Source: Isoetes taiwanensis (taxonomy: Eukaryota; Streptophyta; Lycopodiopsida; Isoetales; Isoetaceae). Taken from it: a DNA stretch of 64,000 nucleotides. Location: NCBI GenBank assembly GCA_021234155.1, contig JAJEKV010000062.1:6974432-7038431 (forward strand). The letters are read 5' to 3'. The translations under genes were made by a program, and so were the position numbers. Of the stretch, positions 12,476 through 59,720 are shown one piece after another. Under the pieces are notes generated by a model. It was not told the origin of the DNA. It did no database searches and worked only from the letters and a program-made list of their open reading frames with translations. Numbering within the stretch: position 1 is the stretch's first letter; each line of letters opens with the position of its first letter.

Positions 12476-12988
12476 TGATATATGAACAGGAATCAAGAAT
12501 ACAATGGCCCGAAGGCAAGCAGGAACACGAGACAGATGCCTAGAAGGCTCAAGACTGCCGTTGAACCGGAATGGTTCGACAAGAAGGAGATGCCTCCTTA
12601 TATATCTAAGCCGACGGTCAAGATCGCGCCACTCCAATGGATGAGATCGCGCCAAGTGTCGCGCATGCATTTAGGTTCTAGAATATTCTAGAACCTCCTA
12701 GAGATAGTCCCACATATGAGGAAGCTGTGAAGGTATGTCTTCAACAAAATATTGGTAGCGCACTTGGCAAGGGTATGTGACTCGCAACTGGAAGGTTGCG
12801 AGTTTAAACCCTGTCTTGTGCAACTACCCTTTTGCATCTGTGTGACGACCATCTTTTGTATATACGAGTATAATGATCGTATGATACGAATATCCATATT
12901 GTGACGCCTTTTGCATCTATGTGACGACCATCTTTTGTATATACGAGTATAATGATCGTATGATACGAATATCCATATGGTCGTCACA
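12476..12988 (-). repeat. 3' LTR of the chromovirus
   Basis: This 513-bp LTR is longer than its partner because a 70-bp block is duplicated with a 79-bp period (about 12829-12898 and 12908-12977, each holding GTGTGACGACCATCTTTTGT or one-base variants). It also keeps CGCCAAGTGTC near 12651, which the 5' LTR has lost. On the plus strand it contains a degenerate tRNA-like block at about 12745-12815. Confidence 0.9.
12745..12815 (+). repeat. tRNA-like block inside the gypsy 3' LTR
   Basis: On the strand opposite to the element's genes, TTGGTAGCGCACTTGGC resembles a tRNA D-loop followed by the next stem, and GGTTGCGAGTTTAAACCC resembles a T arm. The 5' LTR has the equivalent at 18042-18110 with GAAGTTCAAACCCC. 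Folding is imperfect and no anticodon can be assigned, so this is a SINE-like or tRNA-derived relic, not a functional tRNA. Confidence 0.45.
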
Positions 12989-13295
12989 CCATCCCCCTCC
13001 TACGACGGCGACGAGTCCTCGGAGCTGGGGCCGGAGTACTCAAACTTGGCTTGTTCGGGTAACGTCGGTGAAACTCCGCAATTTTGTCAGGCGCATTAGT
13101 CAGATTCTCGGCAGGCTCCCAGGTTCTATCACTTGGCGAGTAACCTTCCCAATCAACAAAGTAATACAATCGTCGACGAAGAAACTTGGAGTCCAGAATC
13201 TCTTGAACCTCGAACTCCTCATGATCATCAATCTCGACTGGTGGTGGAGGTGGAGGTACTTGATCTGGAAATGGATTCGCCATATAGGGTTCCAA
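12984..13295 (-). pseudogene. Chromodomain at the end of gypsy pol
   Basis: The chromodomain tethers the integration complex to modified histones in chromoviruses. The frame reads EFEVQEILDSKF, then YYFVDWEGYSPSDRTWEPAE, then an FHRRYPNKP tail, followed by a basic end (RTRRRRRR) that runs into the LTR. The aromatic positions (Y/W/F in YYFVDWEGY and TWEP) are kept. The wording is closer to what I recall of fungal and vertebrate chromoviruses than to the KWKGYP-type of angiosperm Tekay/Reina elements; that placement is inference. A frameshift separates it from the upstream integrase C-terminus. Confidence 0.85.
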
Positions 13296-13618
13296 TCCAA
13301 CAAAGATACATGGAACACTGGGTGAAGCCGAACTGATGGCGGAAGCTCAAGACGGAAAGCAGCATCACCAACTCGTTCAATGATCCGATAGGGACCTAAG
13401 CGCCGGTAGTCGAGCTTGTTACAAGGGCGAGCTGTCGGCAAATCCTGACGCAAGAGCCAAACAAGATCATCAACTGCAAAATGAGGAGCGTCCAGACAAT
13501 GCTGATCTGCATGATAACGATAACGTGCTTGAGCCTGGAGGAGATGGTGCTGAAGATCATCCTGGAGCATGCGGAGCTTCTCGAGCCTGTCTTTGGCACT
13601 GGGATTGATCGAAGTCAT
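13100..13618 (-). pseudogene. Integrase C-terminal region (GPY/F-like) of gypsy
   Basis: The frame contains a helix typical of integrase C-terminal regions (LHHLLQAQARYRYHAD with small differences), then DLVWLL, KLDYRRLGPYRIIERVGDAA and LHPVFHVSLL. The last two are the GPY/F module and the HPVFHVSLL hallmark of chromoviruses. After HVSLL the frame is lost and the chromodomain continues in another frame. Confidence 0.9.
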
Positions 13619-14429
13619 ATCCGGGGAGCGATGAAAGACGAGTCCGCCCGTGGAGGCATGGATAGAATTATTGTAAGCAAATTACGCCACCGTAGCCAAT
13701 CAACCCAGGTCATCCCGGCCGATAATTGATGAAGCATCGCAAATCTTGCTCAACCGTTTGATTAGTGCGCCCACCGCCCCATTGGTCTCCGGATGATGTC
13801 CAGAAGAGAGCGACCGTTCCATATACAAGAGTTGCAATAGACGCTTCCAAAAGCTAGCAACAAACCGAGGGGCCGCTGGCCACCGACAATGTTATCTGGT
13901 AAGCTATGGAGTCGAACCACCTCTCGAAGCAAGAGAACCATTGTGGCTTCACTGGAGATAGAAGTGCTGCAAGGAATGAAATGTGCCATCTTGGAAAAAC
14001 GGTCAACAATAACAAGGATGGCATCATGCCCCTGGGAGGATGGAAGCTCGACAATAAAATCCATCGAAATACTCTTCCAAGGACCGGCCGAACTGGTAAA
14101 AGGCCGGGCAGCCATGTGGGCCGATTAGCCGAAGCTTTTGCACGACAACAAATATCACGTGAGCGTACAAAAGACTCAACAGTGCGGCGGAGACCTGGCC
14201 ACCAATAATCTCGAGCAATAAGTTCCAGAGTCTTGGCAATGCCAAAATGGCCGGCGAGAGGAGAATCATGACAGAACTGCAGAACTTGAAGTCGAGGGGC
14301 ACCATCCGCAATATACAGGAATCCATCATGAAACAGAAGTCCATCTCGAACCTCAAAATGATCATAGTCCAACCTCATTTGTCGGGAAGATGGTGCTGAG
14401 CCAAGCTGTGATATTATGTCCTGCGCCAA
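13619..14429 (-). pseudogene. Integrase N-terminal and core of gypsy
   Basis: Integrase joins the cDNA to the host genome. The zinc-binding part is readable in the frame starting at 14429: HDSPLAGHFGIAKTLELI, YWWPGLRRTVESFV, then a C-x-x-C-like CCRAKAS. The catalytic core (from about 14115, SMDFIVELP and VDRFSKMAHFIP) gives the first catalytic Asp. The SDRGPQFVA region with the second Asp is only readable after a frameshift near 13915. A further part reads GHHPETNGAVG. Several shifts make it non-functional. Confidence 0.9.
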
Positions 14430-14450
14430 TGGGTCAGAAGGAAGAGATGC

Positions 14451-15146
14451 TCAAACAAACTCCAACAAGGATGTATCATGAGGCCTTTCGAACAAAGTGA
14501 TGGCCATGAGCTGTAAACGATCAGGTCCTAGAATAACCTGTGATTGCTGATCAAATGCTGGCTCCCCCGCCTTAGGTTCGAAATAAGATCTACGAGAAAG
14601 AGCATCTGGTTTTCCTTGAAGCGTGCCAGGCCGAAACTTGATGATGAAATCAAAGCGGGATAGCACCTGTGTATGCCACCGAGCCTGACGACGATTAAGA
14701 ACTCGAGCAGACTGGAAATACTCCAGATTGCGATGATTCGTATACACAGTCACCTTATGAGGATAACCCTCAAGAAATCGTCGCCACTCCTGAAAAGAGT
14801 CAACAATCGCCAAAAGTTCCTTATCGTAAATAGGATAGTTGATTTTTGCAGCCTGGAACTTTCGGGAATGATAGGCGATCGGGTGCAGCTCATGATCATC
14901 CCCCTCTTGCAACAAGATGCTGCCAAGAGCAAAATCTGATGCATCAGCTTCGAGAATATAGGGACGCGCAGGATCCGGGTGTGCAAGAACAGGTGCTGCT
15001 GTAAAGACATGCTTCAGAGTGATGAATGCTGATTCTGCTTCAATTGTCCACTTAAAAGGAACATCCTTCCTGGTGAGACGTGTCAAAGGCAAGACGATCT
15101 CCGAATAGTCCTTGATGAAGTGGCGATAAAAATTGGCAAACCCCAA
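14451..15146 (-). pseudogene. RNase H domain of gypsy pol
   Basis: This is the best preserved pol segment, 231 codons without a stop. It starts with the RT thumb end (GFANFYRHFIKDYSEIV, PFKW) and passes to RNase H: ADASDFALGSILLQ, IAYHSRKF, YPIYDKELLAIV, FLEGYPHKVTVYTNHRNL, then FRPGTLQGKPDALSRRSYF. The Asp of ADAS and Glu of KELL correspond to catalytic residues. The domain removes the RNA template during reverse transcription. It continues the RT frame after a shift near 15150-15200. Confidence 0.93.
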
Positions 15147-15203
15147 GAAGCACTGTACATCTTTAACCGAGGAAGGTGTTTCTCAATCAAGAACTGACCT
15201 TCT

Positions 15204-15945
15204 CTAGATCCATCGTAACACCCTGAGACGTGATGCGATAGCCCAGAAACTCGACATTGTCCTGCTCGAACTGACACTTCTCCAGCTTGGCATAAAGTCC
15301 ATGTTCCCGTAGCTTCTGAAGGAATGTTCTTCATGCTCCTCCAAAGTCTTTGAATAAATCAGAACATCATCTAGATAGACGATAACAAAAAGATCCAAAA
15401 ACTCTCGAAAAACATCGTTAGCCATGTCTTTGAAGGTCATTGAGCATTGATAAGGCCGAAAGGCATGACGGCATACTCAAAATGATCATACCGAGTTCGA
15501 AAGGTTGTCTTCCACTCATCACCTTCCCTGATACGGATAAGATTATAGGCACCTCGAAGATCAATTTTTGTGAAGTATCGTGCACCTTGGAGCCACTCAA
15601 GTAACTTTGGAATCAGAGGGAGAGGATACCAATTACGCGCAGTGATCTTGTTGAGGTCGCGATAAATCCACGACCAGCCGCAAAGAACCATCCTTCTTGG
15701 AAACAAAGAAGATGGCAGCTCCTGCGGGTGACTGGGAATGTCGAATAAACCCAGTTGCAAGATTCTCCTCGATATATGTCCACAAAGTCTCCATTACATT
15801 GGCGACAAGCCATAGATAGGGCCAAATGGCGGGGTCGCCCCGGCTTAAGATCAATGGGGCGCCATAAGGACGATGTTCTCAGGAAGCTTGCGGCTTTGAC
15901 CTTATCAAAAACATCGCCAAAATCCTTGTACTTATCGTGAACCAC
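15204..15945 (-). pseudogene. Reverse transcriptase of gypsy pol
   Basis: RT motifs are spread over three frames: [14 protein letters not shown] and FIRHSQSP (about 15854-15633), [18 protein letters not shown] with [14 protein letters not shown] and YAVMPFGL (15760-15437), and [19 protein letters not shown] (15440 downwards; YLDD at about 15377-15366). The catalytic YLDD box and the LPLI, DLRGAY and MPFGL blocks are those of Ty3/gypsy RT. At least two frameshifts split the domain, so it cannot be active. Confidence 0.93.
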
Positions 15946-16341
15946 AGAGCAGATGTTTCGACGTTTCTAGCGAGCTAGTCGGCGGATGGACTTGATTGCA
16001 AATGCCGACCGGGATCTTGTCTACCATCTAATAAACTGTGAAGAGAGATCTTCTCGAGATACCGAAAACAGGGCGAAGAAGCCTCTACGTAAGGTGGGAT
16101 CAAGAACAGAACGAGCAGAACAACAGCCAGGCGCAGGGAGCAACCGGGACAGAATTGGAGCAGAACCGATCAAGAACCGGAGCAGGGCGTGGACCGGAGA
16201 GCGAGCGTAAAACCGAACTAGAGCAGAGCCGAGCCGAGAGCCGGGCTGGGCGGGGGATATCATCAAGAACATAATCGAATCCGGGCATGAACCGGAGCGT
16301 AAAACAGAACAACAAGGACAAAGCATCAAGAGCCCACGACA
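15946..16341 (-). repeat. Charged low-complexity spacer between protease and RT
   Basis: About 16060-16330 is rich in short purine-rich units on the plus strand (GAGCAGAAC, GAACCGGAGC, GAGCCGAG) repeated irregularly. Part of this spacer may be expanded, since typical elements have a compact PR-RT linker. No domain is recognised. Confidence 0.5.
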
Positions 16342-16803
16342 TCATATGGACCGGGTAGATATTGGTGCAGAGGCTTGAACTACAGATGAACTGGAACTAG
16401 AGCTCGAACCAACAAACCGAAAGGATCTAGTACGCCAATCAATCTGTGGGTTATGTAGCTCGAGCCAGGGCAGACCCAAGACTACTGGCGCATGTGGGCT
16501 AGCAATGAGATTGAAGGAAATGCTACAAGAAGCTCCCTCGAACAAAACGTGAAGAGGTGCAGTACATTCTGTGACTGCGCCTGAAGAGATCTCACGTCCA
16601 TCAGTCACACTAACAGAGGCTGGATGCTCGACCCTGCTTCTAGGAATGGCGTGCTTAGTAGCGAACATACTATCCATGAAGCAGGCATTCGCACCACAAT
16701 CAAGTTGCGTCATCGTCTCTATCCTCCCATTCTCCGACTCCAATGAAATAGAGATAAAAAAATTCTTTACTGACCTTGTCCGAGGGAATAAAACCTTCGT
16801 CAC
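16342..16803 (-). pseudogene. Aspartic protease of gypsy
   Basis: A retropepsin-like domain: QLDCGANACFMDS is the active-site block (normally D-S/T-G-A; here Cys follows the Asp, at residue 36 of this frame), and APVVLGLPWLELHNPQIDW is the conserved second half (LGxPWL, NPxIDW). It would cut the gag-pol polyprotein. The frame is out of register with the upstream zinc-knuckle frame, so a shift lies near 16805-16830. Confidence 0.88.
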
Positions 16804-16826
16804 ATGTGGGAGGAGTTGAAGGAATG

Positions 16827-17762
16827 TCAGGCAAACGTCGAGAGACTCCTAACTACTCGGACGGGGTTCGAACGGTTTTCCGACCGATTTGGGCGCTTCA
16901 CAGGGCATCCAAGAGCAATATGACCAGCTCCCCCACAATAGAGGCAAAGATTAGCTTCTCTCCGATGTTGCTTCTTGGCGGCAGATAAAGGTCCTCGAAC
17001 TGCCCGATCAATCTGCATAGGCTCAGGTCTGGACCTGTTGGATTCTACAGATGAAATCGAGGAAGGCGTAGCTACAGACGCTTGTGTGATTGGGAAGACC
17101 TGACTACGTCTCTCCTGCCTGCGTTCGAAGAGCCGATTATCACATCGAACCACAAATCTGATGGCTTCCTCCAAAGTCTGAGGGTCCTCCATAGATAACA
17201 GCATATCCTTGACATCCTCACGTAACCCCCTTCAAAAACAGTCTTGAAGTACAACATCATCCCAGGCAGTATCTACCGCAATTTGACGAAATTCTGATGC
17301 ATATACTGAAGCTGGACGAGAGCCTTGCCTTAGATTGCAAAGTTTTGTGACTGCTGTGCGCTGACGATCGGTGTCTCCAAAGCATGCCTCGAGCTCTGCA
17401 GTGAATAAAGCAAAATTTTGCAACTCGGGAGCCCCTTTCTCCAGCAAGGGGGCAAACCAACTCAAGGCTGATCCAGAAAGAAGAGAGCCAACTAGACCGA
17501 CCTGTTCTCGATCTGTAGGATACCTGTGAGGGTGGAGTCGAATAACAAGACGAATCTGGTTCAAAAAACCTCGAAGCTTGGATCTGGTGCCATTAAATTT
17601 TTTTGGCAGGCTGATCTTAGGTTCCGATGACCTCCCCCCGGAGCTAGAGGATGATTCATGAGAAGCTAGCCGTTCCTGGAGCTCCTTATTATTCAACTGC
17701 AACTGCTGGCATACTTGAACAAGTTGCTGGACCTGCTGTAATAAGGATGAAACCTCCTCCAT
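16827..17762 (-). pseudogene. gag of gypsy with CCHC zinc knuckle
   Basis: Gag forms the particle coat and binds RNA. The first good Met (17762) lies 22 bases inside the LTR boundary and is followed by a coiled-coil-like start (SSLLQQVQQLVQVCQQLQL). A retrotransposon-gag core follows (GSALSWFAPLL, FTAELEACFGD, SVYASEFRQIA), and CLYCGGAGHIALGC is the zinc knuckle (about 16946-16905). One in-frame TGA at 17232-17234 interrupts it; the next residues (RGLREDVKD) continue the same frame. This suggests a single CGA to TGA change. Confidence 0.9.
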
Positions 17763-17783
17763 AGAGACAGGAATCGCCCAATA

Positions 17784-18207
17784 TGATATATGAACATGAA
17801 TCAAGAATACAATGGCCCGAAGGCAAGCAGGAACACGAGACAGATGCCTAGAAGGCTCAAGACTGGCGTTGAACCGGAATGGTTCGACAAGAAGGAGATG
17901 CCTCCTTATATATCTAAGCCGATGGTCAAGATTGCGCCACTCCAATAGATGAGATCGCATGCATTTAGGTTCTAGAATATTCTAGAACTCCTAAAGATAG
18001 TCCCACATATGAGGAAGCTATGAAGGAATGTCTTCAACAAAATATTGGTAGCGCACTTGGCAAGGATATGCGACTTCGCCAATCGGAAGGTTCTTGAAGT
18101 TCAAACCCCGCCTTGTGCAACTACCCTTTTTGCATCTGTGTGACGACCATCTTTTGTACATACGAGTATAATGATCGTATGATACGAATATCCATATGGT
18201 CGTCACA
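17784..18207 (-). repeat. 5' LTR of the chromovirus
   Basis: This 424-bp LTR matches the 3' LTR throughout apart from indels and scattered substitutions. It carries a tRNA-like block at 18042-18110. The sequence just inside it, read on the minus strand (TATTGGGCGATTCC), does not match the initiator-Met primer site, so the primer is unassigned. Confidence 0.9.
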
Positions 18208-32205: not shown

Positions 32206-33606
32206 AGGAAGCATCATAACTGAGAAGCAAAAACATAGCCTTATGGTTCAAAGCTTCCGTCAGCAATTGGGGCACCAAGTTAAAGAAAAAGAAGAGCCAC
32301 AGTCCACGAAGTCATGCTGAGAAATTGAGGGGACTGCCCATGAGTATAGTAGACCTAGAGAAAAGCAATCAAACCATTAGAAAGGTTCACTGGAAATGTT
32401 AAAGAGGTGGTTCATGTAATATCCATTGCATTGATGCAGCGGATGACCAGATATACCACTGTTCTTTGGCCAGATATACGACATCCTGGATGGCTGTCCT
32501 ATTCTATCCGCCAAAAGATCAACTAGTATAAAAGTATAGATACCAAGTCTTCATTCTTGCACACTAACTTGCCATTCTAGTGCCTCAAAATGGACGTCTC
32601 ATCTGGATGCAGTTAGAAATGGCTTCTTATGACAACATGAGATCCTAAACTTCAAGTATAGAATGCAGTTTCTCAATTTTCTGTTGGGCAAGACATTTAA
32701 GGTTAAGGCGCCTCAACTAAACATAAACTTTACATCTCACATATAAATCCTGAGCATCATATTACCTCAGCAGAGTGCAAAACTAATCCTTCAGGGAAAA
32801 GTTCGCCATTAGAAACATAATTCATCAAAGAAAAAGATTGGCATCACATTTGACTATAGCTCGTTTATCATATTCATAGGATAGATGCGAAATAGAACAC
32901 TGCTCATCCTATCATCCAAGTCATTACAGTCAAGTTGCCAATCAGCAGCATTCAATATTCCTGCCTTTTGCCTCAATTATGGTGCAAAGATGTAAAAAAT
33001 CTGGACTCATATTTATACCAGTAAAAATCATTTTTCTAGATGATGCCACTCTGATGCAATTATATTCACATTTGACACCCTCTTTTAGTCACTTACATCC
33101 ACCACAGTGGTGAGACTAATTTTGAGGAAATTTAATCAAATGTAAAACATGTGGAAAGCTTAAAAGTCTTCTAAACCTGTGAGCTAATTCATGGTCGTTG
33201 CCTTGCCCTTCTTGCTCAAAGAATAAAATGGCCCTGAAAGAATTAATCCTTGGATGCTTGTCATATTTGGGTACAATCTTTCAAGATTTTTGTATCACGG
33301 ACAAATATCTTTTCAACCTTGGCCCATGGTTCCTATTAAAAGGCCTAAGCACAATAACAACAGTTTAAAAGAAATAAATTAAGCTAAATAAGTGAAGAAA
33401 AGCAGAATACGCCCAACTAACCTCTTCAGCTTTCCATTTAGACTATAACCTTCATCGAAATAAACCCTAAGCTTCCCATTTGAACTGCTTTTCACTGAGA
33501 AGCTGCTCCTCACGGAGAAACCTAGTTCAAGCACGAGATTAAAAAACAGCTTGAATTGATTGAAGGGGGCCGCGCGAACGCGAGCCCCCACTACCACAAA
33601 TTATGA
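32206..33606. other. Unassigned sequence
   Basis: AT-rich, with no readable gene or repeat. Confidence 0.35.
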
Positions 33607-35132
33607 CGTGCACTCTCCCCTTGGGGAGATGCTAGAACGATTCACGCCCTAGTGCAATGGCGCAAACCATCCTAGGCCATCGACCTTCTGGATCATCGAT
33701 AGACCCCGCCCAGGTAAGTATGGTGCAGCGTGCCCTCTCTTTTATTTTATAATCTTCTCATGCCTTCTTCTGCAACTTATTCCTGTGGGATATCTATCCA
33801 TTCTTCTGCAACTTATTCCTGAGATCCCTCCCCGAACAACTCGGTTTCCTTCGTGAAGAATCGGAACCTGCCTCTCCACAAAACCTTCGTGCAAAAATTT
33901 TGGGCCTGCACATTGTCTTCTCTTGGGTACACATTGGTTTTCCTCCTATATTCCCTTTGCAATGATTCCTCTGAAGTTATCCTATGCTCTACCTCAGGTT
34001 TGATTCGAATTGCTACTATTCCCAGTGAAATGAAAGCCATTAGTTGAACTATAATAATCACCAATAGCCAAGCGCAAAGTCCAAAGAGAATGAAGTATGA
34101 CATCTGAAAGCATCTAGAAAGGTCGGATTCCTTGTTTTAGAATTTAACAAATGCATAAGATAGCAATGTACGAAACAATTGCATTGGTTTTAGTCTTAAT
34201 TCGGACGCGGCATTTATATCGGCATTCATATGTTTGTTTTCCTATATAATGACATTATTGTTTGTCCTTGTTGTGTACATTATATATGTTCAATATTAGA
34301 TGGACAAGGTGCCGAGCACTATGGATTGCCCCAATGCCATGGGCAATGTTCTGCTTTTCAAAGACAAGCTTTTGAAAAACGTGAACAAGTTTATGTTTTA
34401 TATGTTGCTTTAAGCATAGGATATTGAGAATTAATTGTGGTCTTTTCTAATATTGCAATCGGCCTCATATATTAAAGACAGCACCCATTATTTCTTTTGG
34501 CATCGATTCTTATAGCCATGCCAAAACATGATATAAATTGTTTTGATCTGCTCTTCTATGAGGGGTCAAGTAGTAGCACTTGGCCAATTTGTGGTGCTTA
34601 ACCGAGATAGAGAATTTTCTACAAATGTATAGCATTCCTTGTTAATGGGTGCTACATGACCCATTGATTAGCCGATTGCTATGCAAGGCCCAATTATCAC
34701 CCGCTAATGAATATACAGATCAACTTTAATGGTTATATAGAGTCTTATTATCAGCCCTCCCTTTCCTTATACATCTTCACCATTGTCATTTAGTTAACTC
34801 TTTGCTCCTCCTACTTAGGCACTCAACTAGCCACTACAAGAAAAAGGTACCTATAGTGTCTAAAGTAACATCAATATTTTTGACAATGATGTGCTAAACA
34901 TGGACAATTTTAGAACCTACTCTAATATTTGAGGAAATGCCTCACGTGATAGAGAAGGATCTGATTTCATGGAATGCTATGCTTGGAGCATATGCTGAGG
35001 ACGACCAAGTACAACAAGCTCTTCAGCTTTATGAGCAAATGCCAGTCCATGATATGTCTTATTGGACAACAATGAACACATTGTATGTTGAGCAAGACAA
35101 ATTTGAAAATGATGTTATGCCCTCAGATAATG
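33607..35132 (+). repeat. Segmental duplication, copy alpha
   Basis: This begins with CTCTCCCCTTGGGGAGATGC and a stretch holding CCCAGGTAAGTATGG (a good 5' splice-site consensus), and ends in a PPR fragment. The start matches copy gamma (from 43511). The part from about 34368 matches copy beta (from about 36880) and gamma (from about 44290). Copy beta lacks the first 760 bases. LTR C at 35133 truncates this copy. Confidence 0.88.
34937..35132 (+). pseudogene. PPR protein fragment (copy alpha)
   Basis: PPR proteins bind organellar RNA, one base per 35-residue helical repeat. The frame here reads EKDLISWNAMLGAYAEDDQV, then ALQLYEQMPVHDMSYWTTMN, i.e. one full repeat and the start of the next in the style of plant PLS-class proteins. 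It is open but ends after 66 codons just inside LTR C, and no upstream repeats are readable. It is a truncated pseudogene, broken by the LTR insertion. Confidence 0.85.
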
Positions 35133-39700: not shown

Positions 39701-40567
39701 TTATACATCCTTGTCAAATCCCGCTATTCGGAGCCAGGCGAGTTCTTATGCACATGCCACGTATTATTGGAGATTATTGGGTCTAAGCTAGAAGCATCGT
39801 CTACAATGGCTACCAGGTCTCTACCCCCCTTCCTCATACACAAGTGGTGCAAACAATGATCAACCATCATACAACATCCATAACTTGAGAAATAACATCA
39901 ACACAACCAATCCTAATCACATGCAAACTAACTTACAGTTAGAGTTCATTGATTAGGGTTCCTGGACTAGAACTGAGAGTTATAGAATAGCTATATATAA
40001 CATGCTAGTATTTGATATGATACATCCTAGATCACCTACCTACTTATCTACACCAAATGCCTATTCCTTGGCCACTGCCTCTCCTAGCTAGCTAGGTGTT
40101 TGGTGATGAGCTCCACTCCATTGTATGCATGAAGCTGGGCTCAAGCTTGCACGCACTCTTACCAACTATTGGTTTTAATTGCTAATTATTTATTACGCAA
40201 TGATTCTTAGCAATTCCAAACTTCCTTGGTGCAACGACTCCCTGATCCGGGCTTTGAGGTGCAAGTGGTGTCGGTTGCCAGTTCGGGTACAAAAATGGAT
40301 CTAGGTTAGGGTTTAGATCTAGTTATAGGTTTTACTTTTGGTAATTCCACATGGCACCAATGGAACGGCTCCGCATGGCAGGTCGCCAATGAGCCATCTC
40401 TACTTAGCAATGTGGGATTAGCTTGCCTAAGATGGATAAGTTGTATAAATAACTTGCCTCTCTCCCCTCCTCCCCTGTCAAATCCTTAAGATAAACCTGC
40501 TTCAAATCCGCTCCATACGGCCACAATCTAAAACAGAGATGTTTTTTAGACCTAACCGTAGAGCAGT
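39701..40567. other. Unassigned sequence
   Basis: No gene or repeat is recognised. A low-copy region lies between duplication beta and the tandem duplication that hosts the small copia element. Confidence 0.35.
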
Positions 40568-40823
40568 ACATACTCTATAAAAAATTCTAAGCAAAACGTA
40601 ACAACAAGATAATGAAACATCTATGCAACAAACATGCCCATCATAACGAGCATCTAGCCTAGATTACCAATATCATATGATTATGAACATCCCATTATAC
40701 TTGGTTATAAGCAAAAAGCAAGTTTATAGCTTGTATTGTCATTACAGGATAATACCAAAAAACTCTATTACATACTCTATACAAAACTCTAAACAAATGG
40801 CAACAACAAGATAATGAAACATC

Positions 40824-40898
40824 TGTTGGAATAAGCAAGAGGTCCTGGATTCGATCCCCAGCCTGTCCACCCAATCATAGAATGCTCATTTCTCAACA
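40824..40898 (+). repeat. 5' LTR of copia element 1 (deleted)
   Basis: It retains TGTTGGAAT and then jumps to AAGCAAGAGGTCCTGGATTC, the 3' half of the tRNA-like sequence seen whole in the 3' LTR. About 100 bp are missing. Remaining differences from the 3' LTR are few (GGATTCGAT against GGGTTCGAT; TAGAATGCTC against GAGAAAGCCC). Confidence 0.9.
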
Positions 40899-40900
40899 AA

Positions 40901-40911
40901 TGTATCAGAGC
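40901..40911 (+). promoter_or_regulatory. Primer-binding site of copia element 1
   Basis: TGTATCAGAGC, two bases after the LTR, equals the initiator-Met site TGGTATCAGAGC with one G missing. Confidence 0.8.
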
Positions 40912-40918
40912 AAGCATT

Positions 40919-42661
40919 ACGGCAACCCGCTTTGGAGCATCATTACTGAATGCTGTTGAGGTCTATAATGGTGGATCTGGCTTTCAAGTGTGGAAAGCCA
41001 AGATCAAGAGGGTATTAAAATCGGAAGGACTTTGGGATATTGTGAAGCCGCCAAAGGGTGCAGATAAGCTGCAAGAGGCGATGGCGAGGCTTGAAGAACT
41101 GAAATTAAGTGACGCGGGAATCAAGAAAGAGAAGAGTAAGGCGAAAGGCAAGGCTGGAACGTCTGACACGGAAGGAGTTACTTCAGCCAAAGTTAACGAA
41201 GCTAAAGGTATCATTTGTAGCAAAGTAGGCTCTAGTATTTTGCTGAAGTTGCAAGGATTGTCTCCGAAAGATATGTGGTTATATCTTTTAAAAAATTATG
41301 AAGGTAAATCCTCATCACAGATTGATGTTCTGGAAAAGGAACTAAGATGTCTTAAGTATCATGAAGGTGATAATCTAGAAGTTTTTTTTCAAAACTTGGA
41401 TATGATAGTATTTGATTTGAAAGCTGCTGGTGCTGTTCTTTCAAAAGAAGCTGAATTATTAGCTGTCTCAAGAGCATTCTCTGCTTATGAGCAAATTGCA
41501 ATTCTTGTGAGAAATGTAGCAAAGAGTCGTGAAGAGGCCGAAAGAATTGTTCGTATAGAAATCGAACAGAGAAAAGTTGTAAAGGATGAAGATGAAGGGG
41601 CTGAAATCCTATATGCTGCTGGTCGATCTCGAGGTCGAGGTAAGGAAGGTAAGATTGGTCCATGTTTTGTTTGCAATGAATATGGTCATGTAAAAGCTAA
41701 TTGCCCGAGTCTAGCAAAAGAGATATTTTGTTATAATTGCGGTGGGAGAGGGCATATCTCTTCTAAGTGTTCTAGTCCAAAGAATAGAGGGAGAAGAGGA
41801 GGACGTGCACGTGGGGCTATCAGAGGAAGAGGTCAATATAAATCCAGTGCTGTGAATATGGCTGTTGAAGCAAATAAAGAAGAAGAAGATGCTGAGGTAA
41901 TTCACAAATCTTTTCTTGCTATTAAACGCAACACACGTGCTAACTCTCTTGTAATAGATAGTGGAGCTGAGCGATCCGTAGTCAGCTCTTCAGAAATGCT
42001 TACAGGGTGCTCAAGTATGGGAACGAGACACATACAATTGGGCAATGGATGTCTGCAACAAGTTGAAGGAGTGGGTTTGCTGGAGCTATTTGATCTTAAT
42101 GGAAAACCTGTAAGCCTAAAAGATGTCTTGTGTGTGCCAAATTTAATCCGGAATTTAATCTCGGTTAGTCAGCTAGTAGATCTTGGATATAAAGTGGTGT
42201 TTGACAAGAAAGTTTGTGAAATATTGCGTAATAATAAAGTTGTGTTTCTAGCAAAAAGAAATGGTGATTTGTTTGAATTGAACAAGGATGAGGTAGTTAG
42301 TATGAATGCAGTAATACTTCCATCTGTTGAGTTGTGGCATGAAAGGTTGGCTCATACACATATCAAGAATGTTCAATTTATGGCTAAAAAAGGGTTAATA
42401 GATTGTTCAGCAGAGAAAAGTCAATTTATTTGTCATGGATGTATGCTAGAAAAGCATACAAGAATTCCCTTTAAAAAAAGTAGTAAGCGTGCAAATGATT
42501 TGCTTGAATTAGTGCACACGGATCTTTGTGGACCTATGAATATAAGAAGTGCAAGTGGAAAGAGATATTATATTTCATTTATTGATGATTACAGTAGAAG
42601 GGCCGAGGAGGGGAGCATGTGGATTGTGGTGAAGGCTGGAATGGATTGGTGTGCCCATTAA
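40919..42661 (+). CDS. gag-protease-integrase(N) polyprotein of copia element 1, start codon lost
   Basis: The frame is open from about 40919 to the stop at 42659-42661. Copia element 2 starts MSSRFGASLLN; here the matching codon is ACG (40919-40921) followed by ATRFGASLLNAVEVYN, so the original ATG is lost. Order: gag (WKAKIKRVLKSEGLWDIV, LSPKDMWLYLLKNYEGKSS, then SREEAERIV); two CCHC knuckles (CFVCNEYGHVKANC, CYNCGGRGHISSKC); an Arg/Gly-rich stretch; protease site VIDSGAERSVVSS; GAG-pre-integrase zinc motif (LWHERLAHTHIKN, then FICHGCMLEKH); integrase start (LVHTDLCGPMN, YYISFIDDYSRR). About 20 unrelated residues then lead to the stop at the polypurine tract. Frame integrity over 580 codons suggests youth or selection for gag. 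Confidence 0.88.
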   Translation, partial: TATRFGASLLNAVEVYNGGSGFQVWKAKIKRVLKSEGLWDIVKPPKGADKLQEAMARLEELKLSDAGIKKEKSKAKGKAGTSDTEGVTSAKVNEAKGIICSKVGSSILLKLQGLSPKDMWLYLLKNYEGKSSSQIDVLEKELRCLKYHEGDNLEVFFQNLDMIVFDLKAAGAVLSKEAELLAVSRAFSAYEQIAILVRNVAKSREEAERIVRIEIEQRKVVKDEDEGAEILYAAGRSRGRGKEGKIGPCFVCNEYGHVKANCPSLAKEIFCYNCGGRGHISSKCSSPKNRGRRGGRARGAIRGRGQYKSSAVNMAVEANKEEEDAEVIHKSFLAIKRNTRANSLVIDSGAERSVVSSSEMLTGCSSMGTRHIQLGNGCLQQVEGVGLLELFDLNGKPVSLKDVLCVPNLIRNLISVSQLVDLGYKVVFDKKVCEILRNNKVVFLAKRNGDLFELNKDEVVSMNAVILPSVELWHERLAHTHIKNVQFMAKKGLIDCSAEKSQFICHGCMLEKHTRIPFKKSSKRANDLLELVHTDLCGPMNIRSASGKRYYISFIDDYSRRAEEGSMWIVVKAGMDWCAH

Positions 42662-42668
42662 GGGGGGA

Positions 42669-42845
42669 TGTTGGAATGTTGGAGTATGTGTAATGGGCAC
42701 ACATGAAGAATGATTCAGTGGAGGAGTGCCGAAAGCCCATCAAAGGGCCGGTAGCTCAGTGGTAGAGTACTTGGCTTGCAAGCAAGAGGTCCTGGGTTCG
42801 ATCCCCAGCCTGTCCACCCAATCAGAGAAAGCCCATTTCTCAACA
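42669..42845 (+). repeat. 3' LTR of copia element 1
   Basis: A 177-bp LTR, TGTTGGAATG to TCTCAACA. It is unusually short for copia and over 40% of it is a tRNA-Ala-like sequence. The rest (42669-42744) shows no TATA box that I trust. Confidence 0.92.
42745..42816 (+). tRNA. tRNA-Ala(UGC)-like sequence embedded in the LTR
   Basis: It is 72 nt with canonical spacing: acceptor GGGCCGG/CCTGTCC, D arm GCTC-AGTGGTA-GAGT, anticodon arm CTTGG-CTTGCAA-GCAAG (anticodon TGC, 42777-42779), variable AGGTC, T arm CTGGG-TTCGATC-CCCAG, discriminator A. Pairing fails at 5:68 (C/T) and 31:39 (G/G); everything else pairs, including wobble G3:U70, the alanine identity determinant. The A box TAGCTCAGTGG (42752-42762) and B box GGTTCGATCC (42795-42804) match the pol III consensus. 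No CCA is encoded in register and no T4 terminator follows within the LTR. It may be a functional promoter, a primer mimic or a captured tRNA; charging is doubtful. Confidence 0.8.
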
Positions 42846-42995
42846 ACATCTATCCAACAAACATGCCCATCATAATGAGCATCTAGCCTATACCAAGATC
42901 ATATGATTATGAACATCCCATTATACTTGGTTATAAGCAAAAAGCAAGTTCATAACTTGTATTGTCATTACAGGATAATACCAAACAACTCTATT

Positions 42996-43504
42996 CCAAT
43001 GCCCAGCCAAATGTGGCATAAGCACGACATAATTAAACAAATAATCTGATAATTTTAAAACATCATTCTTGTTTGAAATAGCAACAAAATTTCTATAACC
43101 TGAGTATTTTCGGCTCCTACTACTCGTGAACAGCTATTACTCCTTTGTATCCTTACTAGATAGTCAGTTGGAACACAGAAGCACATGGATGTACACAATG
43201 CGCCAACAAGGTAAAAAATCCTAGTATGCATCCTGATCTTTGCCAAAATCTATCTATAGATTTTGTATCACATGAAAAAAAGCTCTGAAATGGCATGAAG
43301 TATTAGAGCAAATGCACAGCCAGCAAGTCGAGCAGTTCTGATATCAGAAACCACTTCATGTATAAATGCATAATGGTCTCTTATTTTCTTTTTCTAGTTC
43401 TGCTGATGTTCCCTTGCTTTTCATATCCATAACTAAAGAACCCAATGATACTTCAGAGCTAGCAAATATAATTTTAGGATATGCTCCAAGTGCATTCGGC
43501 ACTT
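42996..43504. other. Unassigned sequence
   Basis: Nothing recognisable before duplication copy gamma begins. Confidence 0.35.
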
Positions 43505-53837: not shown

Positions 53838-54672
53838 TGTTGAGAATTCAGCTAATAAGTCATCTGCATAGTCTACCTATGAGAAGCAGTGGCAGTAGGT
53901 TAGACCAACTTGTTCATTAAGTTATCTGCATAAGTTATCTGCATAGTTATCTATGAGAAGCAGTGGCAGTAGGTTAACTTGTAGATTATCATGTAACCTA
54001 AAGTACAGGAGAGACATTGAGTATATGTTAAGATGAGTAAATGTTGAAGATTGAATGTTCAATGTTAACATGGATGTTAAGGAAAAAGGAGTATTTTGTT
54101 AACATGGGAATTGTGGAGGAAAGTTTAAATGGAAAAATATGTTCAATGGTCGAAAAGCCGATTTCCAGTGTTTGTCCTGTGGGATATTATCGAAGAGATG
54201 ACAAACCGAGATTGGAAAGTAAATCCAATCCCATAACTGCCGGATTCATGCGTATAAGACTGATGAACTAGCAGGAAATGATTAGGTAGGTTGGATCGAG
54301 CTGTAGGTTCCGAAGTGGAGCCATAATCTCTCAGTCAAAGGATCTACAGTAATCAGGTCAATGCCCAATGAATAGTGCTTTATCTGCTTCAGTTTTTAAT
54401 GGTTTAGACCATTGCAATCATTATTGACAACAAGCTTATTGTCATAGGATATCTTTGAATGTATTCATAAGCTTTGATTGTAGTCATGAACTTGAAGTAT
54501 GATCATGAAGTATACATGATGATTATGATGTATACATGATCTAGTGAAAATTAGTGACCATATCTTGGCTTTTCACTAGATCATTATTTGTATTCTATTG
54601 TTCATAAGCTTGAAGAATCTTGCTAGACATCAATATTATATTTATTGAGTTTATTATTCTCAAGATCTAACA
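53838..54672 (+). repeat. 5' LTR of copia element 2
   Basis: 835 bp. Contains a 44-48 bp partial repeat of TATGAGAAGCAGTGGCAGTA near its start, and a 76-codon frame (54041-54271) that is identical in protein sequence in both LTRs but has no known motif. Confidence 0.95.
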
Positions 54673-54673
54673 G

Positions 54674-54685
54674 TGGTATCAGAGC
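54674..54685 (+). promoter_or_regulatory. Primer-binding site of copia element 2
   Basis: TGGTATCAGAGC, one base after the LTR; perfect match to the initiator-Met primer site. Confidence 0.95.
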
Positions 54686-54692
54686 TAGCATT

Positions 54693-55709
54693 ATGTCTAG
54701 CAGATTTGGAGCAAGCTTGCTCAACACTGTAGATGTGTATGCTGGAGGTCCTGGTTTCCAAATCTGGAAGGACGCTATAGTACATATCTTGGAGGTTGAA
54801 GACTTGTGGGATTTAGTGGATCCCCAAGGAAATGTTACTGCAGGGGTGCTGACCAGGTTTGGTTCTAATTCAGCAAGCTCTATTAATGCTGCAGATGCAG
54901 GTCAGACTTCACAAAGTGCAGGTGCAGGAGGCACAGCAGTGGGCAGTAGCTCTGGAGGTAAATCCTTGTATGCCAAAGCTAAGGAGGCTCAAGGAATCAT
55001 ATCTTGCAAGGTAAGTCCTACAATTAGGTTGAAATTGAGAGGGTTAAGTCCACGAGATATGTGGAAGTATATGCTTAAACACTATGAAGATAAAACATCC
55101 TCTCAAATTGATTTACTTGAAAATGAGCTAAGAGGATTAAAATTAGGAAAAGATGAGGATGACTCAGGGTTCTTTGATAGCTTTGATAACCTTGTAGCAG
55201 ACCTTGCTGGAGCAAATGTAAATATCTCAGATAGAAGTCAAGTATTGCAAATATCCAGGGCAGTGGATAATGAAAATCTGGCCTTGTTCATTAGAAATAC
55301 TTGTAGGTCAAGAGAGGAAGCAGAAAATTGTTTGAGAACCGAATGGGAACAAAAGAAAATATCAAGGCAACAGTCTAATGAACCTGACGTATTAGTTGTC
55401 AAGAAGAAAGTGACTTGTTATCATTGCCATGAGCAAGGTTACTATAAAAATGAATGTCCCAAATTGAAGAAAGAATTTAATTGCTATACATGTGGGGGAA
55501 GAGGTCAGGTAGCCTCTAAATGCCCAACTCCAAAGAATTATGGGAGGGGAAGAGGAAGATCTGATAGCAGAGGTGGCAGGTCTTCAAATAGAGGAAAAGA
55601 AAGAAGCTATAAAAAAGCTTTTGTAACTGAAGAACATGAAGAAAAGTCTAAGGCAAATTCTGAAGATGAAGATGATGAGGTATTTAATGAATTTGCTATT
55701 CTTGACTAA
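54693..55709 (+). CDS. gag of copia element 2
   Basis: Starts at ATG 54693 (MSSRFGASLLNTVDVYAGGP), 8 bases after the primer site. The UBN2-like gag core contains WKDAIVHILEVEDLWDLV, LSPRDMWKYMLKHYEDKTSS and SREEAENCLR. Two zinc knuckles follow (CYHCHEQGYYKNEC, CYTCGGRGQVASKC; the second has Gln where His is expected), then an RGR/RGG-rich tail. It ends at TAA 55707-55709 after FAILD. The protease frame continues in register, so this stop either separates gag from pol or is a mutation. Confidence 0.92.
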   Translation: MSSRFGASLLNTVDVYAGGPGFQIWKDAIVHILEVEDLWDLVDPQGNVTAGVLTRFGSNSASSINAADAGQTSQSAGAGGTAVGSSSGGKSLYAKAKEAQGIISCKVSPTIRLKLRGLSPRDMWKYMLKHYEDKTSSQIDLLENELRGLKLGKDEDDSGFFDSFDNLVADLAGANVNISDRSQVLQISRAVDNENLALFIRNTCRSREEAENCLRTEWEQKKISRQQSNEPDVLVVKKKVTCYHCHEQGYYKNECPKLKKEFNCYTCGGRGQVASKCPTPKNYGRGRGRSDSRGGRSSNRGKERSYKKAFVTEEHEEKSKANSEDEDDEVFNEFAILD

Positions 55710-55733
55710 ACTAAATCTAACAAATCTGATTAT

Positions 55734-56414
55734 ATGGTAGTTGATAGTGGAGCTGAACGATCAGTAGTGCAATCTACTGATCTTCTGAAGAATCTTACAA
55801 ATGCAAATTCAAGAAATATACAAGTTGGTAATGGAGCTCTTCAGAAAATTCAGAGTAGGGGGTTGCTGCAGCTTGAGGATCTGAATGGTGACATTGTAAA
55901 TATACAGAATGTGTTTTGTGTGCCTACAATAATCAAGAACTTGATTTCAGTTAGTCAATTGGTTGACCTAGGTTATAGGGTCACTTTTGACTCAATGCAA
56001 TGTAATATTTTCCTCAAAGATGAATTGAAATTTCGTGCTACCAGAATTGGAAATCTATTTGCAATGAATAATGTTGTGAGCATCAATACAATCAAAGAAA
56101 AAGGGCTAGAATTATGGCATAATCGTCTGGCACATACTAACAACAAAAATCTCAAGCATTTGATCAAACAAGGCTGGATATTCTGTGACAAAAACTCAGA
56201 CCATTTTATATGTGAAGGATGTGCCTTGGGAAAGCTAAATAGATTACCTTTTACCAAAAGAAAGACCAGAGCAACTCAAGTGCTTGAACTGGTGCACACA
56301 GATCTTTGTGGTCCTTTGAATATTAAAAGCAGGACAAATAAAAGATACTTCATTACCTTTACGGATGATTACAGCAGAAAATGCAAAACTTATGCATCAG
56401 CAACCAAGTCATAA
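55734..56414 (+). pseudogene. Protease and integrase N-terminus of copia element 2
   Basis: VVDSGAERSVVQS is the aspartic protease site. VFCVPTIIKNLISVSQLVDL follows, then the zinc-binding pre-integrase (LWHNRLAHTNNKN, FICEGCALGKL) and integrase start (LVHTDLCGPLN, YFITFTDDYSRKCKTY). The frame stops at TAA 56412-56414 in place of the expected continuing core. Confidence 0.92.
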
Positions 56415-57195
56415 GCACTGTAAGCATTTAAACAGTTTGTAGTTGAATCTGAAAGACAAACGGGAAATAAACTAAAATGTATTAGATCAGATAGAGGTGG
56501 AGAATACCTATCTGATAAATTCAGTTTATATTGTTTAAAGCATGGCATTAAAAGACAATTAACATGCAGACATAGTCCTTAGCAGAATGGTGTGTCAGAA
56601 AGAAAAAACAGAACAATATTGGATGTTGTAAGATCTATGCTGAAGCAAAGTGGTCTACCTAGCAACTTGTGGGAAGAAGCATTAAAAACAAGTGTGGAAA
56701 TTCAGAATAATTTGCCCTAGCATTGTTGGAAACTTGCCTTGTTTGTTATGGAATCCTAATACAAAAGTCAATTTTGACAAGTACAAGGTATATGGATGTT
56801 TAGCATATTCTCACATACCCAAAGAACTGAGGAAAAAATTGGATGAATTGGATGATAAGGCTGAGATTGGCTTTGTAGTAGGGTACGATGAGGAATCCAA
56901 GGGATACAGAATCTACAATCCAGAAAACAAAACAATTACTATTAGTAGAGACGTCTTGTTTAATGAAAATGTAATCTACAAACATAGATATAAGAAAGGG
57001 CATAAGGTTAAGGAGGAACATACTGAAAATAAGGGTGTGAAATTTGACATTGAAGAAGATGCTGGGAATAACCAAGATGTTGATGTGCAACAAGAAGATG
57101 TACAACAGGAAATTGATCAACCTCAGCAGATTAATAATGAGAATCATGACAATAAGGAAACAACAGTCAGAAGAAAAAGGAAAAACACAAGTTGA
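56415..57195 (+). pseudogene. Integrase core and C-terminal region of copia element 2
   Basis: Readable pieces: IRSDRGGEYLSDKF (second catalytic Asp), HGIKRQLTCRHSP, then TAG (56580-56582) and QNGVSERKNRTILDVVRSML (catalytic Glu). After a shift KVNFDKYKVYGCLAYSHIPK, LDDKAEIGFVVGYDEESKGY, RIYNPENKTITISRDVLFNE mark the usual copia C-terminal module. The TAG sits where PQQNG normally has Gln, implying CAG to TAG. Confidence 0.9.
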
Positions 57196-57900
57196 AAGAC
57201 TTATAGAAGAAGCAAAGTTAGGAGATTTACCATATGGCAGGGATGAACAAGGGAGGAGTAGAAGAAATATTACTAGTGATGAACCTGAATTTGAACAAAT
57301 AATGGCCCTGCTAGAAGATGAAGATTTACCACAGATTTTTGAAGAAGTTCAGCAGAGTGCAAATAAAAGCAAATGGATAGCAGCTATGAATGAAGAGCTA
57401 AAGTCATTTACAGAAACAAAGACATATGAACTAGTTGACCTTGATAGCAGTAAAAATGTGATTGGAAGTAAGTGGTTATTCAAAATCAAGGAAAATCCTG
57501 ATGGCAGCAAAAGATATAAAGCTAGATTAGTAGCACAAGGGTATACTAAAAAAAAGGGTAAAGATTATGAAGAAACTTACTCCCCTATTGTCAAGCTCAC
57601 AAGTATTAGAATTTTGCTTGCTATGGCTAATGAAATGAACATGGAAATACATCATATGGATGTTAAAACAGCTTTTTTAAATGCTACTTTAGAGGAGGAA
57701 GCATACATGAGATAAGCTCCTGGGTTTGAGCAGGGAGAAAATAAGATTTGGAAATTGCACAGGGCAGTTTATGGATTAAAACAGTCAGTCCCCTAAGGAA
57801 TGATATCTCTGCATGAATCAGTTTCTACAAGAACATGGATTTGAAAAATTAAAAAATGATGGAAATCTTTATAGATTCCAACAGGAAGAATAATTTTGCA
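57196..57900 (+). pseudogene. Reverse transcriptase N-terminal half of copia element 2
   Basis: The frame reads KWIAAMNEELKSFTETKTYE, NVIGSKWLFKIKENPDGSKR, YKARLVAQGYTKKKGKDYEE, TYSPIVKLTSIRILLAMANE, HHMDVKTAFLNATLEEEAYM. This is the standard start of Ty1/copia RT including the first catalytic Asp (MDVKTAFLN). TAA at 57713-57715 replaces a Gln codon (R-Q-APGF). After it APGFEQGENKIWKLHRAVYG LKQS is readable, then a shift. Confidence 0.93.
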
Positions 57901-58871
57901 TTATAGCACTTTATGTTGATGATTGCATAATGATTGCAAACACCATGAATATTCTTAATGAAGCAAAAAGGATTCTGAAAAATAGGTTCCAAATGTCAGA
58001 TTTAGGAGAACTAAAGAAATTCTTGGGTATAGAAGTCATTAGAGACAGAGATCAGAAATATATAAAGTTGTATCAGAAGACTCACATTGATAATATGGTG
58101 AGAAGATTTAATTTAGAGGATGCTAAAGTAGTGAAGATACCTATGACACCTGGACATGCACTTACAGCAAATTCACAAGACATGCCAAGTACAAACATGG
58201 AAAAAACACCATACATGGCTTTAATTGGATGCTTACTGTATCTGGAAAATAACACCAGACCTGACATTGCATATGCAGTTAACATCTTGAGTAGAAGATG
58301 TCACAACCCTACAAAGAATCATTGGGAAGCAGGAAAAAAAGTGTTGAAATATCTCAAGGGAACATCCACTCAAGGTATATGTTATACTTCAGAAAAGTTA
58401 AAACTAACTGCCTATAGTGATGCAGATTGGGGAGGTGATCTAAGCACTAGAAGGTCAACATCAGGGTATGTCATATTCTTAGGGAACAATGCCATAACTT
58501 GTAGATGCAAGAAACAAGCAGCTATAGCAATGAGCTCTGCAGAAGCAGAGTATGCTGCTTCGTCATTGGTGGCTAAAGAATTAGTCTGGTTAAGGAGATT
58601 ATTGCAAGAATTAAATTGTGCACGTGATGGAGCCACTGAAATCATGACATACAGTCAAAGTTGCATAGCTATAGTGAAAAACCCTGTTCATCATGATAGA
58701 ACCAAGCACATAGAGTTAAATATACATTTCATACGGGATTTGGCAGTGCAAGGTATTATTCAAATGAGATATGTTGATACTAACAGTCAAATAGCAGACA
58801 TATTTACTAAGGCACTTGCAGAAGTTAAATTCAGTAAATTTAAAGAGAAACTAAATGTGTTGGACTTATAA
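57901..58871 (+). pseudogene. RT C-terminal half and RNase H of copia element 2
   Basis: It begins ALYVDDCIMIAN (catalytic YVDD) and continues MSDLGELKKFLGIEVIRDRD, PYMALIGCLLYLENNTRPDI, YAVNILSRRCHNPTKNHWEA. RNase H follows: LTAYSDADWGGDLSTRRSTS, AIAMSSAEAEYAASSLVAKE (DADW and SSAEAEY motifs), HIELNIHFIRDLAVQG, ADIFTKALAEVKFSKFKEKL. It is open for 313 codons and ends at the natural stop (TAA 58869-58871) 13 bases before the 3' LTR, with the tract GAAGGAGGAA between. Confidence 0.95.
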
Positions 58872-58884
58872 GCTGAAGGAGGAA

Positions 58885-59720
58885 TGTTGAGAATTCAGCT
58901 AATAAGCATCTGCATAGTCTACCTATGAGAAGCAGTGGCAGTAGGTTAGACCAACTTGTTCATTAAATTATCTGCATAAGTTATCTTCATAGTTTACCTA
59001 TGAGAAGCAGTGGCAGTAGGTTAACTTGTAGATTATCATCTAACCTAAAGTACAGGAGAGACATTGAGTATATGTTAAGATGAGTAAATGTTGAAGATTG
59101 AATGTTCAATGTTAACATGGATGTTAAGGAAAAAGGAGTATTTTGTTAACATGGGAATTGTGGAGGAAAGTTTAAATGGAAAAATATGTTCAATGGTCGA
59201 AAAGCCGATTTCCAGTGTTTGTCCTGTGGGATATTATCGAAGAGATGACAAACCAAGATTGGAAAGTAAATCCAATCCCATAACCGCCGGATTCATGCGT
59301 ATAAGACTGATGAACTAGCAGGAAATGATTAGGCAGGTTGGATCGAGTTGTAGGTGCCAAAGTGGAGCCATAATCTCTCAGTCAAAGGATCTCTAGTAAT
59401 CGGGTCAATGGCCGATGGAATAGTGCTTTATCTACTTCAGTTTTTAATGGTTTAGAGCATTGCAATCATTATTGACAATAAGCTTATTGTCATAGGATAT
59501 CTTTGAATGTATTCATAAGCTTTGATTGTAGTCATGAACTTGAAGTGTGATCATGAAGTATACATGATGATTATGATGTATACATGATCTAGTGAAAATT
59601 AGTGACCATATATTGGCTTTTCACTAGATCATTATTTGTACTCTATTGTTCATAAGCTTGAAGAATCTTGCTAGACATCAATATTATATTTATTGAGTTT
59701 ATTATTCTCAAGATCTAACA
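58885..59720 (+). repeat. 3' LTR of copia element 2
   Basis: 836 bp; differs from the 5' LTR by scattered substitutions and small indels (for example AATAAGCATC against AATAAGTCATC near the start). Confidence 0.95.

Follow-up and report, generated by a model that had tools for sequence, protein, structure and literature searches.

We found that the tRNA-Ala(UGC)-like sequence in an LTR of the window (the whole 64-kb stretch of Isoetes taiwanensis DNA analyzed here) belongs to the LTR of a multi-copy family of ~547-bp TRIMs with recent activity, and that the tRNA-bearing LTRs (tRNA-LTRs) of this family can also enclose Copia coding sequence, as they do in the window itself. From the family, its structure, its TSDs, the LTR tRNA and the hybrid junctions, each described below, we infer a TRIM of the Helenus/TRIMp3 kind that would start its RNA with RNA polymerase III, would be mobilized in trans by Copia, and would at times form hybrids with Copia by template switching; we hold this joint reading to be probable.

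The preliminary description of this DNA reported a near-complete tRNA-Ala(UGC) lying wholly within a 177-bp LTR, and our results bore this out. ARAGORN called a tRNA-Ala(tgc) at 42745-42818, Rfam matched RF00005 over model positions 1-71 of 71 with 62.3 bits (gathering threshold 29, E 4.2e-11), and the element has TG..CA ends and a 5-bp TSD. The block of 72 nt in the 3' LTR is a complete cloverleaf tRNA and, by both programs, the sole tRNA in the window. Read from the letters, its T stem is perfect (CTGGG/CCCAG), the acceptor stem contains G3:U70 and a mismatch of C5 with U68, and G faces G at the loop end of the anticodon stem; the minimum-energy fold of the block is not the cloverleaf. The A and B boxes given in Table 1 are those that we take to be the boxes on the basis of their consensus. 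A chance match was ruled out by the Rfam score and by ARAGORN, which called one or more tRNA-Ala in every one of the 32 stretches fetched from the genome. Viral contigs scanned with a 30-base piece of the block gave no matches. Elsewhere in the window, 51 nt on the reverse strand (3624-3674) are 74.5% identical to nt 10-60 of the LTR tRNA (E 2.5e-4) and may represent a further tRNA-derived repeat.

The genome (1.66 Gb, 1110 contigs) was searched using positions 42700-42900 of the window as the query. With the best 40 of 504 candidates scored, at least 41 matches were found, including the window itself, which ruled out a lone capture. In 39 of the 40 other matches, the alignment begins with the first base of the query (LTR position 32) and stops no more than 12 nt from the LTR end; the exception is an LTR fragment. 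We fetched 32 stretches (L009-L040) that cover all 40 other matches, and every one of them contained the LTR, with 58 LTR matches altogether. The copies were picked by their similarity to a tRNA-containing query, and it is for that selection that the following frequencies hold: a tRNA-Ala was called at 50 of the 58 LTR matches by ARAGORN, and Rfam found a tRNA at 53 of 58 (of its 34 + 23 hits from two batches, 53 fell in L009-L040). The loci L041 and L042, described below, add two tRNAs each to these counts, and L032 and L034 duplicate their 5' LTRs; the ARAGORN total was 54 tRNA-Ala at 34 loci, with the anticodon tgc in 53 and ggc in one. The preliminary description had proposed that a family would be supported if the same tRNA were embedded in many copies, and that the module predates the insertion in the window; on both points the genome agreed, the tRNA being integral to the LTR and inherited with it in the fetched stretches.

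Among the 32 stretches, 22 two-LTR arrangements were found, and the usual element is non-coding and consists of a 177-nt LTR, an internal region of ~193 nt and a second 177-nt LTR. The internal region measured 177-196 nt in 17 of the 22 (exactly 193 in seven), and was longer or internally duplicated, at 240-451 nt, in the other five. The PBS was exactly TGGTATCAGAGCC in 18/22, and the polypurine tract preceding the 3' LTR was exactly TTAAGGGGGAA in 14/22, with variants or shifted ends in eight. Exact 5-bp TSDs flanked 13 of the 22 two-LTR copies and 5 of 14 single LTRs, the latter as expected for solo LTRs; the remaining nine single LTRs include one fragment as well as LTRs that belong to arrays, to truncated copies or, as 5' LTRs, to the longer elements in L032 and L034. 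Multi-LTR arrays were seen at L022 and at L009, which continues in L045 (one locus). Five of the 22 LTR pairs showed no differences in 177 nt, indicating recent insertion.

In the window, the polypurine tract and the LTR start lie between the arms of a perfect 12-bp inverted repeat, GTGTGCCCATTA / TAATGGGCACAC (42649-42702), for which a hairpin of -18.8 kcal/mol over 65 nt was predicted. Both arms were exact in 18 of the 22 two-LTR copies, where they lie at the junction between the internal region and the 3' LTR. This repeat could mark the 3' end of the RNA or protect the polypurine tract.

The window copy departs from the usual element (Table 1). It has TG..CA ends and a total length of 2022 bp, and a gag frame stands between its two tRNA-LTRs. 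The 5' LTR retains 75 nt, namely the first 9 nt followed by the tRNA from nt 36 onward, and is 94% identical to the 3' LTR across 67 nt. The open frame matched the Pfam families Retrotran_gag_2, zf-CCHC, Pol_BBD and gag_pre-integrs, was 45% identical in amino acids to the frame at 54696-56381 of a larger Copia in the window, and was 22-30% identical to the nine closest proteins, which come from mixed organisms. An intact complete gag-pol frame is absent from this copy, the frame ending in integrase. The 64 nt that follow the Copia sequence are 100% identical to internal positions 128-191 of the TRIM at L013 (internal region 193 nt). The term "copia LTR" used in the preliminary description needs to be divided: the LTR belongs to the ~547-bp non-coding TRIM, while the window copy does hold Copia sequence and is best read, from its sequence, as a TRIM-Copia hybrid with tRNA-LTRs flanking a Copia gag.

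Table 1. Features of the window copy, the larger Copia of the window, and the coding hybrid L041 (positions in L041 are those of its own stretch).
Feature	Position	Strand	Basis
TSD, left copy, ACATC	40819..40823	.	sequence
5' LTR with internal deletion (102 nt gone), 3' half of tRNA block kept	40824..40898	+	sequence
Diverged PBS, here AATGTATCAGAGC against family form TGGTATCAGAGC	40899..40911	+	sequence comparison with family
Open Copia region: gag, zinc knuckle, protease region, start of integrase	40919..42602	+	Pfam; within open frame 40919-42661
3' part of TRIM internal region, fused to Copia and terminating in polypurine tract	42603..42666	+	match to L013
3' LTR, full length, 177 nt	42669..42845	+	sequence, repeat comparison, genome search
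tRNA-Ala(UGC)-like sequence with presumed A box TAGCTCAGTGG and B box GGTTCGATCC	42745..42816	+	ARAGORN, Rfam 62.3 bits
TSD, right copy, ACATC	42846..42850	.	sequence
Larger Copia of the same lineage, approximate ends	53838..59720	+	LTR repeat 97%, ORFs, Pfam, sequence
L041, left tRNA-LTR	155-331		
L041, middle LTR-like stretch	4686-4964		
L041, whole TRIM internal region, starting at its PBS	4965-5186		
L041, right tRNA-LTR	5187-5364		

The insertion site of the window copy is a ~200-bp tandem repeat, and the adjoining unit (from ~40610) represents the uninterrupted site; the repeat surrounds the element at 40567-40823 and 42845-42998, with matching pieces 89-96% identical. Other features of the window include a complete U1 snRNA gene or copy on the reverse strand (33563-33721, Rfam 134.6 bits) and, also on the reverse strand, a degenerate Ty3/Gypsy-like element (12305-17981), in which frames resembling gag, RT/RNase H, integrase and a chromodomain were recognized by eye. 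No Pfam family was assigned to six of the ten window ORFs tested, and six window ORFs had no NCBIfam family.

A second coding hybrid, L041, is 5.2 kb long and reads in the order tRNA-LTR, PBS, Copia gag-pol, polypurine tract with an LTR-like stretch, TRIM internal region and tRNA-LTR, with the TSD GAATT on both sides. Its gag-pol, which was recognized by similarity to the window Copia frames and is spread over several frames, differs from that of the window copy: the Copia internals of the window and of L041/L042 share 37-58% amino acid identity in pieces. A single intact gag-pol frame is absent from both L041 and L042, in which the coding sequence is split over several frames. After gag-pol, L041 contains TTATGGGGGAG and then a stretch of ~269 nt, TGTTGAGAAG..TTTCAACA, and the TRIM internal region begins exactly at its PBS. 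Three features suggest that this stretch is the Copia's own LTR: a polypurine tract precedes it, its ends are TG..CA, and its start resembles that of the LTR of the larger Copia of the window (TGTTGAGAA); among the loci fetched it was found only in L041 and L042. L042 is 92.6% identical to L041 over 9.7 kb, flanks included, and is thus a segmental duplicate of that locus, so that both count as one event. Among the loci analyzed, coding hybrids with tRNA-LTRs at both ends are limited to the window copy and L041 with this duplicate.

Further junctions between TRIM and other sequence were found in L043-L046. In L043, TRIM internal position 1 follows Copia RT coding sequence, with short microhomology at the junction (..GAAGC / TGGTATCAGAG), and in L045 it follows an LTR-like end, ..TCTAACAG; both junctions fall at the PBS, and the left parts are rearranged or missing, with an antisense Copia piece adjoining the hybrid part in L043. 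A gag-like frame, recognized by eye, is joined at TRIM position 170 in L044. At L046:8290-8445 (the L028 locus), TRIM internal position ~78 is fused to an unrelated short LTR-like sequence, TGTAACGGAC..CGTTACA, together with TGGTATCAGAGC; no matching flanks were seen at L046, and the junction is perhaps a cross between two different LTR families. These four were rejected as complete hybrids, none having a tRNA-LTR to the left of the hybrid part within its stretch. Among the titles and abstracts listed in our searches of mainly open-access literature, no description of coding elements with tRNA-bearing LTRs was found.

What the tRNA block does in these LTRs can be approached through its promoter boxes, its variation and its flanks. 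A role as an internal RNA polymerase III promoter, which had been put forward in the preliminary description, is the leading predicted function and appears likely. Against it stands the near-absence of the polymerase III terminator, TTTT, which occurs in 1 of 58 aligned LTRs (at the very start, where the end was extended past the match) and in none of the 22 TRIM internal regions. The 547-bp copy at L013 has no T-run of four or more, but shuffles of one copy were equally free in 7302 of 20000 cases, and so this absence is itself no evidence. The first TTTT beyond the 3' LTR lies 3 to 734 nt away (22 pairs), which means that a polymerase III RNA would end in flanking DNA. Read-through by RNA polymerase III is permitted, and the 3' end of the TRIM RNA would then be undefined. 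The internal regions of the hybrids, in contrast, contain T-runs of four or more (six in the window copy and 23 in L041, the first of the latter 30 nt in), so that a full hybrid RNA could hardly be made by polymerase III. This contrast makes the question testable, since initiation by polymerase III should succeed on the TRIM but not on the coding hybrids.

Alternatively, the block might be a passenger, i.e., an old tRNA or SINE insertion in the LTR without a present function, in an element transcribed by RNA polymerase II like an ordinary Copia, which we find doubtful. Proof of selection on the block is lacking in the variation data. We aligned 57 of the 58 fetched LTRs (one of less than 165 nt was dropped) together with the window 3' LTR, the window 5' LTR being excluded, and variation amounted to 56/4160 in the tRNA, 60/2584 at LTR positions 32-76 and 71/1666 at positions 149-177; for low variation in the tRNA, permutation gave 505/20000 and circular shifts 8/145. 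However, this first apparent signal of selection was carried by five subfamily-marking columns (17, 55, 76, 157 and 162), and we withdrew it as proof: without them, the values were 1.35%, 1.17% and 2.0%, respectively, and the gap between the tRNA and the upstream LTR part was gone. That all five columns lie outside the tRNA gives weak support for constraint. The highest variation inside the tRNA is that of the T arm with box B (27/980), an argument against strong constraint in that arm. Both boxes are present in copies, and the copies are too alike to reveal constraint.

The two stem mismatches also agree with a passenger, as does a near-repeat, GAAAGCCCAT / GAAAGCTCAT, that brackets the LTR tRNA and resembles an old TSD. 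In the window LTR the 10-mer flank repeat is exact, and an exact repeat of this kind arose in just 101 of 200000 flank shuffles. Yet the base that completes it is present in 2 of 58 aligned LTRs, GGAAAGCCCA is present in the TRIM internal region too, and flank repeats of at least 10 occurred at 599 of 63799 equal-sized blocks of the window. An independent SINE inside the LTR, which the preliminary description had raised as a counter-explanation, was not supported either, the exact repeat at its fixed position being found in 0 of the 47 LTRs of exactly 177 nt. Against the passenger reading stand the boxes and cloverleaf kept in most LTR matches, at the ARAGORN and Rfam counts given above.

We next consider how a non-coding TRIM with a probable polymerase III start could have come to enclose Copia genes. 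The larger Copia of the window has LTRs of ~0.84 kb and the PBS TGGTATCAGAGC, and no tRNA was found in these LTRs when ARAGORN and Rfam were run over the window. We propose it as a model of the helper; the hybrids point to their own Copia lineage as the helper of the TRIM. RNA polymerase III would probably initiate TRIM transcription at the A and B boxes in the 5' LTR; Copia Gag would package the RNA, initiator-Met tRNA would prime it, Copia RT would make the cDNA, and Copia integrase would insert it with 5-bp TSDs. The window copy and L041 are best read as products of template switching between TRIM RNA and a co-packaged Copia RNA. For the window copy, minus-strand synthesis would have begun on TRIM RNA, switched to the Copia RNA and run on to the Copia PBS, on which the TRIM plus-strand strong-stop DNA (tRNA-LTR and PBS) would have landed, leaving gag between two tRNA-LTRs; the switch would have taken place within the TRIM internal region, at a point without clear microhomology. 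For L041, the cDNA would have reached the TRIM PBS, i.e., the template end, and continued on Copia RNA at the same PBS, copying R and U5 before an ordinary transfer to the Copia 3' end. Synthesis through U3, the polypurine tract, pol and gag would then reach the Copia PBS, with which the TRIM plus-strand strong-stop DNA would pair to supply the left tRNA-LTR. Thus, a single switch at the PBS common to both RNAs, together with the usual strand transfers, would account for the arrangement of L041 without further steps.

Priming of the element by its own LTR tRNA, as suggested earlier, is not favored, because the family PBS TGGTATCAGAGC is one that we take to be of the initiator-Met type and not Ala. 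Likewise, the LTR tRNA of Helenus is described as having no complementarity to its own PBS (Kojima 2024, PMC10886601).

The coding hybrids might instead have formed at the DNA level, by recombination of a one-LTR Copia circle through the shared PBS for L041, or by insertion of Copia into a TRIM followed by LTR loss for the window copy. Entry of such a circle at the PBS would give the same order as in L041, and the one inserted base by which the two tRNA-LTRs of L041 differ, which fits a single recent insertion, is compatible with this origin too. However, the homology available at the junction is merely ~12 nt, and a circle fits neither the junction in L043 (RT coding sequence to TRIM position 1) nor that in the window (integrase to TRIM position 128), making this origin unlikely. 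It is more unlikely still that a Copia with tRNA-LTRs came first and that the TRIM is its internal-deletion derivative, the view taken of a rice TRIM by Gao et al. (2016, PMC4717578). The LTR and internal ends are indeed common to the TRIM and the coding copies, but the same LTR stands on two different Copia internals (those of the window copy and of L041/L042, with the identities given above), and a deletion parent needs no second LTR-like stretch beside a complete TRIM internal region with a second PBS, yet L041 has both. Finally, a working tRNA-Ala(UGC), or a processing or packaging tag (RNase P/Z cleavage, or a tRNA-like transport signal), would agree with the cloverleaf, G3:U70, the anticodon and the Rfam score of 62.3 bits, but is very improbable in view of the two stem mismatches and the missing terminator behind the block, and functional tRNA from most Helenus families was judged unlikely (PMC10886601).

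Altogether, the structural features assign the Isoetes family to the Helenus/TRIMp3 type, the comparison with Helenus being made by description. It differs from Helenus in its Ala(UGC) block of 62.3 bits, in a PBS that presumably matches the 3' end of initiator-Met tRNA, and in its Copia-coding hybrids with tRNA-LTRs at both ends. That the system is undescribed, as first suggested, was not borne out: TRIMs with tRNA-derived LTRs were published as Helenus (TRIMp3) from fungi, animals and one plant, Selaginella (Kojima 2024, PMC10886601), and the coding hybrid is a variant of that published kind for which we found no description in the literature searched. As in Helenus, tRNA-derived sequence occupies both LTRs, and the family fits the short non-coding two-LTR form with PBS and polypurine tract (<1000 bp in the screen of PMC10886601), whereas the window copy, with its 2022 bp and gag frame, falls outside it. 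The 5-bp TSD of fungal and plant members also recurs here, in 13/22 two-LTR copies, 5/14 single LTRs and, as ACATC, in the window copy. In the same account, Copia was suggested as the helper of fungal Helenus, a long stretch common to the LTRs of TRIMp3 and its helper was thought unlikely, and polymerase III transcription is unproven for Helenus itself (PMC10886601).

Cassandra resembles the Isoetes family in having a polymerase III-type gene in the LTR, the same PBS TGGTATCAGAGC and multi-LTR arrays, but its LTR holds 5S rRNA rather than a tRNA (Kalendar et al. 2020, PMC7215508), and for its helper there is no indication, according to Kojima (PMC10886601). In the papers considered here, helpers of TRIMs with small-RNA genes were named by resemblance in PBS or internal sequence, or not at all (PMC10886601, PMC4717578, PMC7215508). 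Hybrids joined at the PBS would provide a physical identification of the helper lineage, and would show that a single round of reverse transcription can exchange LTRs from one retrotransposon family to another.

Larger elements were reported for 11 of 289 TRIM subfamilies (Gao et al. 2016, PMC4717578). A parallel to our hybrids is found in rice, where the coding Copia OsajLTRA10 shares its LTR and internal ends with the TRIM OsajRetroS10; unlike here, OsajRetroS10 was read as a deletion-derived TRIM, and an LTR tRNA goes unmentioned in the main text, in which no word begins with "tRNA" (PMC4717578). The breakpoint of OsajLTRA10 carries a duplicated 25-bp sequence ending in TGGTATCAGAGCC (PMC4717578), which by analogy suggests the same double-PBS mark as in L041. 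We raise, as a tentative possibility, that the tRNA-LTR acts as a promoter cassette that can be transferred: strong-stop DNA of the TRIM would repeatedly take the place of LTRs in co-packaged Copia RNAs by way of the shared initiator-Met PBS, different coding retrotransposons would thereby gain a polymerase III-type LTR, the hybrids would record the helpers, and the duplicated PBS of rice OsajLTRA10 would reflect the same event.
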